Assembly (NCBI RefSeq): GCF_003060965.1 | Contig: NZ_QAII01000045.1 | Span: 1-64,000 of the forward strand | Direction of reading: 5' to 3' | Length of the DNA: 64,000 nucleotides | Source: Caulobacter sp. HMWF025 | GTDB lineage: Bacteria; Pseudomonadota; Alphaproteobacteria; Caulobacterales; Caulobacteraceae | In this document: positions 19,378-24,995 of the stretch, in pieces | How positions within the stretch are numbered: the first letter of the stretch is position 1 | Layout: each line of letters opens with the position of its first letter | Notes under the pieces: model-generated | Databases searched by the model: none | What the model saw: only the letters and a program-made list of their open reading frames with translations | Told to the model about the DNA's origin: nothing | Position numbers and translations under genes: made by a program

Positions 19378-21723
19378 CTAGGCGTGCTTTAGCGTACCGG
19401 CTTCGACGTCTGTCGGCATGTCGATCGACCAGCCCTCCAGGAACGTGGTCAGGGGCTCCAGGGCCATCGGACGGGCAATGTGGTAGCCTTGGGCAATGTC
19501 GCAGCCCATCAGTTGCAGCAGGGCCAGGGCTTCGCGGGTCTCGACCCCCTCGGCCGTGACCTTCATGCCGAGGCTGTGGGCCAGGTCCACGGTCGACTTG
19601 ACCAGCAGGGCGTCCTTGCCACCGGCTTCCAGCTTCAGCACGAAGGCCTTGTCGATCTTCAGCTCGTCAGCACGGATCTGCTTCAGATAGGCGAGGGACG
19701 ACAGACCCGAACCGTAGTCGTCGATCGAAACCGGAATGCCCGCTGCGGCCAGCTTGTCGAGCACGCCCAGGGCGACGTCGGGATTGCCGATGACGGCCGT
19801 TTCGGTGATCTCGAAACAGACCCTGGCCCCTTCGCGGGCCACGAGGTCGATGGCGCGATCGGCGAATTCGGCATCGTCGATCAGGCGGCCGGAGACATTG
19901 ACCGACATCAGGACATCATGACCGGCGGCGCGCAGGGCCTTCTGGTCGGCGATGGCCTGGGTCAGCACGAAGTCGGTGAGGGCGCGGATATGACCGGTTT
20001 CCTCGGCCATCTCGACGAAGAGATCCGGCCGCATCATCCCGCGCGTGGGGTGCTTCCAGCGCACAAGGGCCTCGACCCCGGTGATCCGGCCAGACCGCAG
20101 GTCGAGCTTGGGTTGATGGTTGAGGAACAGGGCCCCGTTGGCGACGCCTTCGAGCATCTCGCTCATCAGCGACAGGTTGCCGGAGGGATCGCCATAGGCC
20201 ACCGGGTCAAACAGCATCACCTTGCGGCGTGCGGCGCGGGCCTGATCGAGGGCGATCATCGACTGTTCGATCACGCGGGGGGCATCCGGGCCGCCCGGAA
20301 TGGTGGTCGCCACACCGACGGTCATATGGATGTCCACCAACTCGCCGCGAACGCGGATGGGGGCTTCCAGTCCGGTCAGGACGGCTTCGATGCGGGAGAG
20401 CGTCGTCTCGACATCGTCATGCGTGCCCACAACGCACAGGGTCGAGGTGGTCAGGCGGCCGATGAAGGTTTCGGGCGAGATCAGGCCGATGCGTGCGCCC
20501 AGTTCAGTAATCAGCTGGGTCGCCAGTTCATAGCCGATGGCGCTACGCACGAAGGTGAAACGGTCAAGGCCTGTGGCGCTGACCACGACGTGCTGACCGG
20601 GAACGACCTGGGCAAGCCTCGTGGTGATCTCGCGTTCCAGCGCCCGACGATTGGGCAGGCCGGTTTCTTCGTCATGCAGGGCCTGGTGGGTGATCATGGC
20701 CTCGCGATCGCGGATCTCGGTCGCCATGTGATTGAAGCTGTCGGCCAGACGGCCGATCTCGTCCTGGGTCTGGACCGTGACGTGGACCGTCTCGCCCCGC
20801 TGCAGGCGGCGGGCGGCGTCGTCCAGGGCCATGATCGGCCGGGCGAGGCCCCGGGACAGAGCCCAGCTGGCGGCAGCCACCAGGGCTGCGCCGATCAGGC
20901 CGACCAGGATCACGCCCGCCATCAGGGGACGGTAAGGGGCCATGGCCAGGGCCATAGGATAGCGCAGGACCAGCGCTGCTGCACTGTCTGAGGACAGCGA
21001 TTTCAAGGGTTTGACCAGCACCAGGCTCTCGCCGGCCTTGCCCTTCAGCAGGCTGGGCTTACCGGCCTTGTCGCGGATGGCGGTGTCAACAAAGACGGCC
21101 AGACGGGGCGTGTCGGCCGTGATGCTGTCGGTGATCCAGGCCTGGCCCCGGCGGTCAAAGACCTGGGCCTCAAGGCCGATAGCCGACAGACGCTCGAGGG
21201 CCTGCATTTCGCGACGGTCGAGACGGGCGGCAAAGACGATCCAGCCGGTCAGGTTCGGCGACAGGATGGGGGCCGAGATGATCTGGTAGGGCGCGCCATT
21301 GACGACGAAAACGCCCTGCGCCCCGGTTTCGCCGTCGAGGGCCGTCCAGAGCTTTTCCAGGTCCAGTTGGCCGGGATCGATGCCGATCACCTCACCCTCG
21401 ACGCTGACGGTGAAGGCCAGGTCCAGCCCGAGGCGCTGGCGCAGGTTGGTGATGGCGGATTCGACGGTGGGCGCATCACGGGTCGCGAAGGCGGCGCGGA
21501 AGCCGAAATCGCGCGACAGCAGGTCGGCCCCGTCCTGCAGGCGCTGGGTCCGCAACGCCCATACCCGGTCGAACACCGTACCGGTGGCGGTCAGCTCCTT
21601 GCGGACGGTCTGCTGGGCATTGCCGACAATCGCCAGATAGACCGTCACGGCGACAAGGCTCAGGGCCAGGGCAAACAGCCCGGCATAGAGAACCGTCAGC
21701 TTGGTCTGGAGGCGGTTGAACAC
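19378..21723 (-). CDS. Membrane sensor with HAMP, degenerate GGDEF and intact EAL domains
   Basis: The 781-residue protein has a membrane segment (about 8-34), a 230-residue periplasmic sensor region that looks cache-like, a second membrane segment (about 265-290), and HAMP. A GGDEF domain opens with HDEETGLPNRRALEREI, and a C-terminal EAL domain follows. The GGDEF active-site stretch reads IGRLTTSTLCVVG, so the GG(D/E)EF residues are gone. EAL residues are kept: GVEALVRWKHP, NVSGRLIDD, CFEITETAV, SIDDYGSGLSSLAYLK and VTAEGVETREAL. I infer a c-di-GMP phosphodiesterase controlled by a periplasmic signal. It follows the cupredoxin-like gene by seven bases. Confidence 0.92.
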   Translation of the reverse strand: MFNRLQTKLTVLYAGLFALALSLVAVTVYLAIVGNAQQTVRKELTATGTVFDRVWALRTQRLQDGADLLSRDFGFRAAFATRDAPTVESAITNLRQRLGLDLAFTVSVEGEVIGIDPGQLDLEKLWTALDGETGAQGVFVVNGAPYQIISAPILSPNLTGWIVFAARLDRREMQALERLSAIGLEAQVFDRRGQAWITDSITADTPRLAVFVDTAIRDKAGKPSLLKGKAGESLVLVKPLKSLSSDSAAALVLRYPMALAMAPYRPLMAGVILVGLIGAALVAAASWALSRGLARPIMALDDAARRLQRGETVHVTVQTQDEIGRLADSFNHMATEIRDREAMITHQALHDEETGLPNRRALEREITTRLAQVVPGQHVVVSATGLDRFTFVRSAIGYELATQLITELGARIGLISPETFIGRLTTSTLCVVGTHDDVETTLSRIEAVLTGLEAPIRVRGELVDIHMTVGVATTIPGGPDAPRVIEQSMIALDQARAARRKVMLFDPVAYGDPSGNLSLMSEMLEGVANGALFLNHQPKLDLRSGRITGVEALVRWKHPTRGMMRPDLFVEMAEETGHIRALTDFVLTQAIADQKALRAAGHDVLMSVNVSGRLIDDAEFADRAIDLVAREGARVCFEITETAVIGNPDVALGVLDKLAAAGIPVSIDDYGSGLSSLAYLKQIRADELKIDKAFVLKLEAGGKDALLVKSTVDLAHSLGMKVTAEGVETREALALLQLMGCDIAQGYHIARPMALEPLTTFLEGWSIDMPTDVEAGTLKHA

Positions 21724-21730
21724 GGCGGCC

Positions 21731-22348
21731 TCAGTGTCCGCCCTGCGGGCGCAACTCGACCGCCATGGTTTCGCGGGTCGTGCCGTTGCCGACCGAGGTG
21801 GTGGCGAGGGTCTTTTCGTTCTTCATGGCCCGCAGGTAGGGATGCCAGACCCGGGCCACGACGCTCCCGGAGGGAACGTCGCTGATTGTCGCCACGCCCG
21901 CGGCATCGGTCTTGGCGGCATAGGCGGTGTCGACGACCCGGATGAAGCCGACCATCTGGTCGTGAATGTTGCAGCCGATGGCGGCGACGCCGGCGGTCGG
22001 GAGCCGGACCGTCCGGTTCTCCTCGCGGCCATAGAGCTTCAGTTCAAACTTGTTGCCGGCCGAGAATGAATAGACGTGGTGGCGAACCTTATCGAGGTTC
22101 GGAAAGGCCACTTCTGCGCCGACCGGCACGATCAGGACGAACGGCGTGAACTGGATGTTCTGCTGGGCCACCCGGTAAGGCCAGGGGAAGGTGATCGGTC
22201 CCCGGGTCGGCTGTCCGCCGGGGTAGACCATGACCACGGCGTCCTGGACGGGCTTGCCGTCGGTCGATCGCACCGTGACGCTGAGGGTGCCCGCGAGCGC
22301 CTTCGAGCTGAAAAACACGATCAACAGGAGTGTGGCGATGAACCTCAT
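21731..22348 (-). CDS. Exported cupredoxin-like protein (methylamine-utilisation-protein type)
   Basis: The 205-residue periplasmic protein has a signal peptide (1-19, ending KALAG), an N-terminal strand-rich segment, and a cupredoxin-like core. The possible copper ligands are visible as VRHHVYSFSAG (His) and IGCNIHDQMVGF (Cys and His, then Met), the usual H-C-H-M set of type 1 copper sites. Databases often call such proteins methylamine utilisation proteins, but no methylamine gene is near. It is the first gene of a two-gene unit with the EAL sensor and is divergent from the DUF3034/haemoglobin unit. Confidence 0.82.
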   Translation of the reverse strand: MRFIATLLLIVFFSSKALAGTLSVTVRSTDGKPVQDAVVMVYPGGQPTRGPITFPWPYRVAQQNIQFTPFVLIVPVGAEVAFPNLDKVRHHVYSFSAGNKFELKLYGREENRTVRLPTAGVAAIGCNIHDQMVGFIRVVDTAYAAKTDAAGVATISDVPSGSVVARVWHPYLRAMKNEKTLATTSVGNGTTRETMAVELRPQGGH

Positions 22349-22523
22349 GCTTCCTGCCTAACCCGGGGCCCGTGAAATCGCCGTTAATGCAGGGGTTGCA
22401 AGGGGTGTTTGCGGTCCCAGTCGCGGCCTGATGCGCAAGGGTCTGTAAAGTGTTCTGTCCGATTTTGGCCTCGGGGACGCGGGCGCGACGGGTATTTTCC
22501 CGCGCCAGGGCACAGAGGTTGGA

Positions 22524-23414
22524 ATGCAAGGGCGTTTGCTTACCAAGGTCAGTCTCAGTCTCGTTGGACTTTGGTCGCTGGCCGTAACCGGCGTGGCCAG
22601 GGCCGGAGAGATCAATACAGGCGGCAAACTCTTGCTGACGGGCGGAGTCAGTTCTCTGGAAGGTGGTGCCGGCGGTGGACTGGCAACCTGGAGCGTGATT
22701 GCCGGCAACGAAACCCGTGACGGGTTCGGCGGCAAGGTCCATCTGACCGGTGTCGAGGTTTCCGACTACAGCTTGCGGGCTGCCGGGGCGGCAGTGGGTC
22801 TGCACGACCGGGTCGAACTCTCGGTCGCGCGTCAGGAATTCGACACGGGGGACACCGGGGCCAAGCTGGGGCTCGGCAAGGGCTTCACCTTCCGCCAGGA
22901 CGTCTATGGCGTGAAGGTGCGGGTGCTGGGTGACGCGGTTTATGACCAGGACCGCTGGCTGCCCCAGGTCTCGGTCGGGGCCCAGTACAAGAAGAACAAC
23001 CAGGGCACCGTGGTTCGGGCCGTCGGCGGCAAGGACGACAGCGGTACCGACTACTATGTGTCGGCCACCAAACTGCTGCTTGATCAAAGCCTGCTGCTCA
23101 GCGGCGCTGTCCGCCTGACCAAGGCCAACCAGACCGGCCTGCTGGGCTTCGGCGGCGATCGCAGTGACAGCTACAAGCCCCAGTTTGAAGGGTCGGCGGG
23201 TCTGCTGCTCAGCAAGCGCCTCGCCGTGGGGGCGGAGTACCGGTCCAAGCCCAGCAATCTCGGCTTTGCACGCGAGGACGACTGGGTCGACCTGTTCGCG
23301 GCCTATGCGATCAACAGGACTGTGTCGGTCACGGCCGCCTATGTCGATCTCGGCGACATCGCCACCTTCAGGAACCAGCGGGGCCTCTATGTCTCGCTGC
23401 AGGCCGGCTTCTAG
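22524..23414 (+). CDS. DUF3034 family putative outer-membrane barrel
   Basis: The 296-residue exported protein has a signal peptide (about 1-27, ending ARAG) followed by INTGGKLLLTGGVSSLEGGAGGG, the opening of the DUF3034 family. The rest is rich in alternating hydrophobic strands and ends LQAGF with a terminal Phe, the mark of outer-membrane beta-barrels. Function is not established. It starts 175 bases from the divergent cupredoxin-like gene and its stop codon lies within the ribosome-binding site of the haemoglobin gene, so the pair is one operon. Confidence 0.82.
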   Translation: MQGRLLTKVSLSLVGLWSLAVTGVARAGEINTGGKLLLTGGVSSLEGGAGGGLATWSVIAGNETRDGFGGKVHLTGVEVSDYSLRAAGAAVGLHDRVELSVARQEFDTGDTGAKLGLGKGFTFRQDVYGVKVRVLGDAVYDQDRWLPQVSVGAQYKKNNQGTVVRAVGGKDDSGTDYYVSATKLLLDQSLLLSGAVRLTKANQTGLLGFGGDRSDSYKPQFEGSAGLLLSKRLAVGAEYRSKPSNLGFAREDDWVDLFAAYAINRTVSVTAAYVDLGDIATFRNQRGLYVSLQAGF

Positions 23415-23425
23415 GAGTGCGCCCC

Positions 23426-23932
23426 ATGCATCCGTTCCTTCAGCGCGTCGCCCTGGCTACCGGTCTTGGCCTGGCGCTTGCCGGCACCGCCCTGGCCCAG
23501 GAGGTTCCGGCCGGTGAGAAGCCGGTGGACGCCTATGTCCAGTCCAATGCCAATGCAAACGCCACGCCGCTGGCGGACAAAGCCGTCTTCGACGCCTTCG
23601 GCGGCAAGGACGGTCTGGTCCGCATCGCGGCCGACACTGTCGACTTCAGCATGGCCGATCCGAGGATCAAGGACATCTTCGCCACTACGGATGTTCCGCG
23701 CCTGAAGCGGACCCTGGCCGAACAGTTCTGCTACGTGCTGGGGGGCGGTTGCACCTATACCGGCCGCGACATGGCCGCCGTCCACAAGGACATGGGCGTC
23801 ACCCATCGCGACTTTAACGCGCTGGTCGAGAACCTGCAGAAAGCCATGGACAAGGCGGGTGTGCCCTTCCGGGTCCAGAACCGGCTGGTGGCCAAACTGG
23901 CCCCGATGCAGCGCAGTGTCGTCGAGCGATAG
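23426..23932 (+). CDS. Exported group 1 truncated haemoglobin
   Basis: The 168-residue protein has a signal peptide (about 1-23, ending ALAQE), which is unusual for a globin, so it should act in the periplasm. The globin fold is visible as VFDAFGGKDGLVRIAADTVD, LKRTLAEQFCYVLGGGC and MAAVHKDMGVTHRDFNALVENL, where the first His is the likely proximal haem ligand. ATG 23426 is chosen because TAGGAG lies nine bases upstream; GTG 23417 is an alternative. Truncated globins bind O2, NO or CO. The 3' end faces the nucleoside permease-like gene with only five bases between. Confidence 0.88.
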   Translation: MHPFLQRVALATGLGLALAGTALAQEVPAGEKPVDAYVQSNANANATPLADKAVFDAFGGKDGLVRIAADTVDFSMADPRIKDIFATTDVPRLKRTLAEQFCYVLGGGCTYTGRDMAAVHKDMGVTHRDFNALVENLQKAMDKAGVPFRVQNRLVAKLAPMQRSVVER

Positions 23933-23937
23933 CAGTC

Positions 23938-24981
23938 TCAGCGTGTGCCGGGAACCGCTCCGCCATAGCGCGCCCAATTGCGGCTCAGCTCGTCGACGAC
24001 CAGATCACCGGCCTTGAAGGCGGCGTCCAGCGACGACTGCAGGGCCGGCACGCCGCTGTGCTCACCCAGCAGGTTGGTCGCCGCATCGCCGCCGGGCGGC
24101 TGGGTCGTGTAGTTGCTGGCCGTCCGCAGGATCAGGACCCGGGCCGGATCGGCGCGCCCGGTGCGGCCCAGGGCCGCGATGGCGGCCAGTACGCCGGTGT
24201 CTTCCATGCCGGTCATCACGAAGCCCTCGCGGCTGCCCGTCCAGTAGTCGGCCCAGGCCTCGTAGTGGCGGTTCAGTTCGATGCCGTGCCAGAAGGTCTG
24301 GCCGCTGACCTCATTGCCCTTCAGGACCATCGGTGGGGTCTGGGCCTTTGGAAATCCGGCATAGGGCGCGCGCAGGGCCTGCAGGGCCTCGTTGTCAGGG
24401 ATGGCGGCATGGCGGGTCAGGTCGAAGGCCCAGTCGCGCAGCGCAGTGTTGAGCGGAAACAGGTTGCTGTTCGGCATGGCCGGGGCCGGGGCCTCGTAGG
24501 GGGCCTTGCGGTCAAAGGGGATCTGGCCGGTGCTCCAGGTCTTGGGCATCTCGCGCGGATCAATGGCGTAGCCGAAGTCGCTGTCGACCACGGCACCGAT
24601 CCAGGCCGCCGACCCGACCGAGGCCTGGTTGGGGTTCACCCCGGCGATGGCGGCGACCAGCCAGTAGGCGCGCGAGAGGTCAAACCGTGGATCCTGGCCC
24701 AGGGCCAGGGTGGAGATGGCCGCCCGGCTGGTGCCCATGCCGGTCGAGACCAGCAGGGTCTTGCGCTGCGGATCGTAGCGCAGATGCCGGTAGCCGGCCG
24801 GGAAGGGCAGGACCTGCGGCATGACCTTCGCCCAGGCCTGGTATTCGCCGGCCATGTCGCCCGTGTCCTCGCCGATCTCGAAGGCGGTGACCACGACCAC
24901 TCGGACTTCGAGCGGGGCCGCGAAGGCGGGCAGGGCCAGAAGACTGGCCAGCAGACCGGCGAGAACCACAAGACGGCGCAT
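23938..24981 (-). CDS. NUP family purine nucleoside permease-like protein
   Basis: The 347-residue protein has a signal peptide (1-21) and the NUP/nucleoside-phosphorylase-like fold: VRVVVVTAFEIGEDTGDMAGE near the start, VSTGMGTSRAAISTLAL, VAAIAGVNPNQASVGSAAW, and GMEDTGVLAAI. The family was first described as a yeast nucleoside permease, but its fold resembles purine nucleoside phosphorylases, so a periplasmic binding or cleaving role is equally possible. ATG 24981 gives the signal peptide; the longer open frame to 25239 is unlikely coding. It sits downstream of hflC but beyond that operon's terminator. Confidence 0.83.
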   Translation of the reverse strand: MRRLVVLAGLLASLLALPAFAAPLEVRVVVVTAFEIGEDTGDMAGEYQAWAKVMPQVLPFPAGYRHLRYDPQRKTLLVSTGMGTSRAAISTLALGQDPRFDLSRAYWLVAAIAGVNPNQASVGSAAWIGAVVDSDFGYAIDPREMPKTWSTGQIPFDRKAPYEAPAPAMPNSNLFPLNTALRDWAFDLTRHAAIPDNEALQALRAPYAGFPKAQTPPMVLKGNEVSGQTFWHGIELNRHYEAWADYWTGSREGFVMTGMEDTGVLAAIAALGRTGRADPARVLILRTASNYTTQPPGGDAATNLLGEHSGVPALQSSLDAAFKAGDLVVDELSRNWARYGGAVPGTR

Positions 24982-24995
24982 GGCATTCCCTGGAT

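Follow-up and report, generated by a model that had tools for sequence, protein, structure and literature searches.

Several bacterial systems are known in which an exported protein, encoded beside a membrane receptor, regulates the cytoplasmic output of this receptor. YfiR-YfiN and NspS-MbaA are c-di-GMP receptors of this kind with a periplasmic partner, and DbfQ-DbfRS is governed by a small protein (PMC12714742). In P. aeruginosa, CHASE4 GGDEF-EAL proteins (PA14_37690/PA2072 and PA14_53310/PA0847) carry the same general class of periplasmic receptor domain as the one described below, and one is reported to bind copper (PA14_37690) and another haem (PMC13277305). These proteins are described as binding the cofactor in the receptor protein itself. 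RcsF-OmpA/IgaA is an envelope sensing system in which an outer-membrane lipoprotein with a barrel reports to an inner-membrane protein. Here we analyzed a 64,000-nucleotide stretch of Caulobacter sp. HMWF025 (contig NZ_QAII01000045.1, hereafter the window) in which the putative partner of a c-di-GMP receptor is a predicted type-1 copper protein, and in which an outer-membrane barrel and an exported globin, both predicted, belong to the gene set. In this set, separate exported proteins hold the predicted cofactor sites, and the putative outer-membrane lipoprotein, in many beta- and gammaproteobacterial relatives, is a globin. The features are as follows.

19378 to 21723, minus strand: predicted membrane c-di-GMP phosphodiesterase (781 aa, GTG start) with TM1 (~7-37), a periplasmic dCache_3/CHASE4-like receptor domain, TM2 (~264-291), HAMP, a degenerate GGDEF and an intact EAL domain.
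21731 to 22348, minus strand: predicted exported cupredoxin (205 aa) with type-1 copper ligands H90, C126, H129 and M132 and an amicyanin-like CxxHxxM loop, inserted in an Ig-like (carboxypeptidase-regulatory-like) shell.
22349 to 22523, no strand: 175-bp divergent promoter region between the two operons.
22524 to 23414, plus strand: DUF3034 predicted outer-membrane beta-barrel (296 aa) with 12 predicted strands and a conserved Gly-rich N-terminal segment (TGG..S..EG.AGGG).
23426 to 23932, plus strand: predicted exported group-1 truncated haemoglobin (168 aa) with a signal peptide, proximal His120, Cys102 and Cys109, and an apolar distal pocket (V72 at B10, L93 at E7, L97 at E11).

A sequence-only reading had noticed two short operons diverging from one 175-bp promoter region, pointed to similar gene sets with no described function in other proteobacteria, and proposed that the globin and the cupredoxin bind a gas or a metal in the periplasm and tell the EAL protein, which then lowers c-di-GMP. 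The observation holds, and proved larger than was thought: the four genes are intact and the intergenic interval is exactly 175 bp. The globin most likely starts at the ATG at 23426 rather than at the GTG at 23417. The proposed interpretation is only partly supported by our data, as detailed below.

First, we assigned the domains by Pfam searches. The EAL protein matched EAL (5.7e-64), GGDEF (1.8e-14), HAMP (3.8e-9), dCache_3 (1.5e-7; 31.7 bits against a cut-off of 25.7) and CHASE4 (1.9e-6; 28.5 bits against 26.2), the last two being overlapping models of one periplasmic domain of ~230 aa bracketed by the TM segments. The GGDEF motif of the window copy is degenerate (GRLTTS, residue 422), so that it should not be a diguanylate cyclase, while the eight EAL catalytic and metal residues are present in 32 of 32 sequences, as expected for an active phosphodiesterase. 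DUF3034 (PF11231) was recognized at 4.5e-103 (344.7 bits) and the globin matched Bac_globin at 4.8e-11 (43 bits, cut-off 21). Neither Pfam nor NCBIfam gave a family over cut-off for the cupredoxin. However, a profile of its relatives matched cupredoxins of the PDB (best 3.6e-6, NirK C-terminal domain), and its AlphaFold2 model (pLDDT 91) superposed on plastocyanin and amicyanin (Z 11-12.6 over 81-85 residues; Z 12.6 to plastocyanin over 83 residues at 1.6 A), in a fold search that barely tests the Ig-like shell. As in amicyanin, the ligands follow the H...C-x2-H-x2-M pattern, but the protein is tied to a receptor and not to a dehydrogenase or reductase. RefSeq calls its relatives "methylamine utilization protein", a misleading name since no neighbour other than the module genes is conserved, and no mau genes are annotated in two loci (L225 and L226; G and L numbers denote genomes and loci of our collections).

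To determine how widely the four genes occur together, we searched 398 Pseudomonadota genomes and found DUF3034 in 39 of them, in 13 families and 27 genera, and in none of 14 control genomes. We then compared all ORFs in up to 17 kb around nearly every copy (12 kb for one near a contig end). Only four gene families recur widely, the globin (38 loci), DUF3034, the cupredoxin and the EAL protein (31 or more each), and no fifth conserved gene was found. Thirty loci hold all four genes. In 22 of these, the order is cupredoxin, EAL, DUF3034, globin on one strand, often with overlapping ends or tiny gaps, whereas alphaproteobacteria have the divergent two-plus-two layout of the window. Eighty named loci from another collection (Caulobacter, Brevundimonas, Phenylobacterium, Sphingomonas, Novosphingobium, Caballeronia, Undibacterium and others) repeat the picture. 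Absence of co-occurrence beyond the genus had been set beforehand as a result that would refute the proposal; instead, the four families co-occur in alpha-, beta- and gammaproteobacteria.

Reverse searches with the cupredoxin, globin and receptor-domain profiles showed that the module is made of two near-obligate pairs, whereas the sequence-only reading treated the four genes as one unit. DUF3034 and a Cys-pair exported globin are found together in 39 genomes, alone in 0 and 2, respectively, and neither is found in 357. The cupredoxin and the receptor domain are found together in 48 genomes, alone in 3 and 2, respectively, and neither is found in 345. The two pairs are linked less strictly, since 38 of 39 DUF3034 genomes have the cupredoxin, while 13 genomes have the cupredoxin without DUF3034. 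The thresholds that define presence were set by us at visible gaps in the hit lists, and the counts and co-occurrence p-values ignore phylogeny. In five Burkholderiales-type genomes (G213, G225, G246, G261, G389), the DUF3034-globin locus lacks the cupredoxin-receptor pair, which is encoded elsewhere. Genome G078 has barrel and globin without cupredoxin. Genome G019 has cupredoxin, globin and DUF3034 but no receptor match and, together with 5 cupredoxin loci without a local receptor described below, indicates that the phosphodiesterase is not always required. Mirror-tree distance correlations among the four families were 0.71-0.85 for all pairs and did not single out any pair.

We next examined the cofactor sites, which bear on the proposal only through sequence. 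The copper ligands H/C/H/M are invariant in 61 of 61 cupredoxins. In the globin, the proximal His120, Phe85 (CD1) and Cys102/Cys109 are invariant; the Cys pair may be a disulfide or a thiol switch. The best PDB family match of the globin is M. tuberculosis truncated haemoglobin N (1IDR; 4.9e-26), which has the same proximal His. However, TyrB10 and GlnE11 of HbN are lost: in 39 sequences, B10 is L, V, I or M (one N), E7 is L, F, V or I, and E11 is L or F. The apolar-pocket HbN variants 2GL3 and 2GKN, whose residues were read from the alignment, score at least as well as the wild type. A survey of this globin clade links Leu at E7, E11 and G8 to low O2 affinity (PMC4720485). Thus, the distal pocket predicts weak O2 binding, and poor O2 binding with an open haem would favour NO or CO or a plain redox role. 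Many beta- and gammaproteobacterial copies have a lipobox (22 of 40 by a simple pattern, with a few errors both ways) and are probably outer-membrane lipoproteins, while the window copy has a plain signal peptide.

These residues bear on two alternative explanations. In one, the globin would be a periplasmic scavenger of NO or peroxide with the cupredoxin as electron donor, linked to adhesion control by a merely co-regulated phosphodiesterase. Group-1 globins are often NO dioxygenases and cupredoxins donate electrons to di-haem peroxidases, but NO dioxygenation needs stable bound O2, the residues that hold O2 are absent here, and the cupredoxin goes with the receptor domain even where there is no globin (48 of 51 cupredoxin genomes). 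We consider this reading very unlikely. In the other, the barrel would admit copper, the cupredoxin would be a periplasmic copper chaperone whose metal loading is read by the receptor domain, and the globin would support redox cycling of copper. The full type-1 site, the pairing of the cupredoxin with porin-like genes alone in 5 loci and the reported copper binding of the PA14_37690 CHASE4 domain (PMC13277305) are in favour of it. However, a complete H/C/H/M site is normally an electron-transfer site that holds copper tightly rather than a chaperone site, the obligate globin is unexplained, no flanking family is conserved in the general comparison of ORFs, and a MauG-type partner described below fits redox better. 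Copper sensing or delivery therefore seems unlikely, although less so than detoxification.

The AlphaFold2 model of DUF3034 is fair (pLDDT 74), with about 12 strands from residue 68 on and a poorly modelled Gly-rich segment, and the C-terminal residue is F, Y or W in 33 of 40 sequences, as expected for an outer-membrane barrel. The best fold match is FapF (Z 19.9, 223 residues, 3.1 A), followed by KdgM and COG4313 (Z 17.9-19.9 overall), with about 5-12% identity. The shared fold shows no function, and an amyloid secretion role alike FapF was rejected because only the fold matches and no fap gene is a conserved neighbour. The resemblance to 12-stranded channels (KdgM, NanC, COG4313) and to the gated FapF pore, together with the interchangeable barrels described below, could suggest that the barrels are specific pores and that the cupredoxin/Ig protein is a periplasmic solute- or partner-binding protein telling the receptor what enters, redox being incidental. 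This uptake-sensing explanation would leave the invariant copper and haem ligands unexplained and no metabolic genes are conserved beside the module, so that we regard it as improbable, slightly more so than copper sensing.

In order to see which partners the cupredoxin takes elsewhere, we tabulated 25 cupredoxin loci outside DUF3034 loci, with labels assigned by hand. The neighbour is a receptor-EAL protein in 13 cases, a receptor fused to a nucleotide cyclase in 2, to a Ser/Thr kinase in 1 and to a hybrid histidine kinase in 2. A search for further cyclase or kinase examples in the class of genome G064 returned no new ones at E <= 1e-25. A third gene is common: a ~410-aa porin-like family without a Pfam or NCBIfam name that weakly matches Porin_4 (13 of these loci, also in L082 and L086 where it stands beside DUF3034-globin), or other barrel-like genes (L183, L185, L192). 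The cupredoxin also occurs with a porin-like gene and no local receptor in 5 loci. In L206, the cupredoxin, a MauG-like di-haem protein with two CxxCH motifs and a receptor kinase form one operon, and L210 holds a truncated copy of the same arrangement. A haem protein is again found beside the cupredoxin, of a class known to exchange electrons with cupredoxins. This recurrence, with haem proteins and barrels on one side and one receptor domain on the other, is the strongest argument, still indirect, that the cupredoxin is the link, and it strengthens the idea that cupredoxin and globin report to the EAL protein.

Taken as a whole, we favour, tentatively and with somewhat less than even confidence, a trans-envelope sensing relay. 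In this view, the DUF3034 barrel would work in the outer membrane as an obligate pair with the exported globin, and the copper protein would be the periplasmic carrier between this pair and the inner membrane. The receptor domain would read the carrier, most likely its Cu(I)/Cu(II) state or its haem-dependent conformation, and through HAMP set the activity of the phosphodiesterase. The most likely input would be a diatomic or redox signal acting at the globin haem, NO being favoured over O2 because the distal pocket lacks the hydrogen-bond donors that hold O2. Our analysis establishes gene content, pairings, conserved ligands and active-site residues, predicted folds, and interchangeable partners and outputs, whereas haem and copper binding, phosphodiesterase activity, outer-membrane localisation, contact or electron transfer between the proteins, the ligand and the sign of the effect on c-di-GMP are inferred from sequence alone. 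Against this view, no promoter motif points to NO, O2 or copper control, as FNR/DNR, CRP and sigma-54 motifs showed no excess over shuffles upstream of the operons in relatives, and the genomes and loci above that lack the receptor or the cupredoxin also count against it. A broader possibility, which we hold as possible but more doubtful, is a general class of trans-envelope metalloprotein receptor, in which a dedicated cupredoxin carries redox information from an interchangeable barrel or haem protein (DUF3034 with globin, the ~410-aa family, the MauG-like protein) to one receptor domain with an interchangeable output (c-di-GMP phosphodiesterase, nucleotide cyclase, Ser/Thr kinase, histidine kinase). 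Electron transfer would then be used as transmembrane signalling, which would be a new class.

Exported partners of membrane c-di-GMP receptors are already known, but we found no description of a copper protein with an exported globin and a barrel in literature searches on DUF3034, on cupredoxins with c-di-GMP and EAL proteins, on exported truncated haemoglobins and on the "methylamine utilization protein" with hemoglobin, EAL or diguanylate proteins, although a description could exist, since some hits were judged from titles and abstracts and subscription papers were not covered. The copper- and haem-binding CHASE4 proteins of P. aeruginosa make the idea more plausible but are not the same system. 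DUF3034, this cupredoxin family and exported globins are conserved in many Proteobacteria without a known function; if they form one sensory chain, this would give a function to hundreds of genes, explain why a haemoglobin is exported, and add a copper-protein input to c-di-GMP, cyclase and kinase signalling. Finally, the gene set is also carried by plasmids of Caballeronia and Novosphingobium.

Further gene arrangements around the cupredoxin were noted in the fetched regions (designated L followed by a number). In two of them, L206 (1221-5829) and L210 (5263-9175), the cupredoxin, a MauG-like di-haem protein and a hybrid histidine kinase are encoded in one operon, although in L210 the MauG-like gene is truncated after the first haem motif. 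In L183 (1052-3617) and L185 (1079-3849), the same receptor domain is fused to an adenylate/guanylate cyclase and is found beside the cupredoxin and a barrel-like gene. We also observed that an unnamed porin-like family of ~410 aa travels with the cupredoxin, as seen in L187 (7958-9196) and for its relatives in L181, L184, L186, L188-L191, L195-L198, L203, L082, and L086, and no Pfam or NCBIfam model matched this family over cut-off. In L082 and L086, a cupredoxin-receptor-EAL-porin operon stands directly beside a second cupredoxin and DUF3034-globin. Finally, in L224 (5006-8960), which is from a Comamonas aquatica plasmid, genes encoding a DUF4394 protein, the cupredoxin, and an EAL protein lie in a row next to conjugative pilus genes.

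Variations in copy number were observed as well. The L144 and L146 loci, both from Undibacterium, contain two DUF3034-globin copies in tandem with one cupredoxin, while L069 (contig C3 of genome G078, positions 72191-73313) corresponds to a broken second copy of DUF3034-globin with in-frame stops. In the reverse profile searches, two or three group-1 globin genes were found in tandem in many small genomes of one family (f38; for example genomes G029, G100, and G218), which lacks DUF3034 in this sample. In the window, a purine nucleoside permease-like gene (NUP, PF06516) located at 23938-24984 on the minus strand converges on the globin gene and is not conserved with the module.
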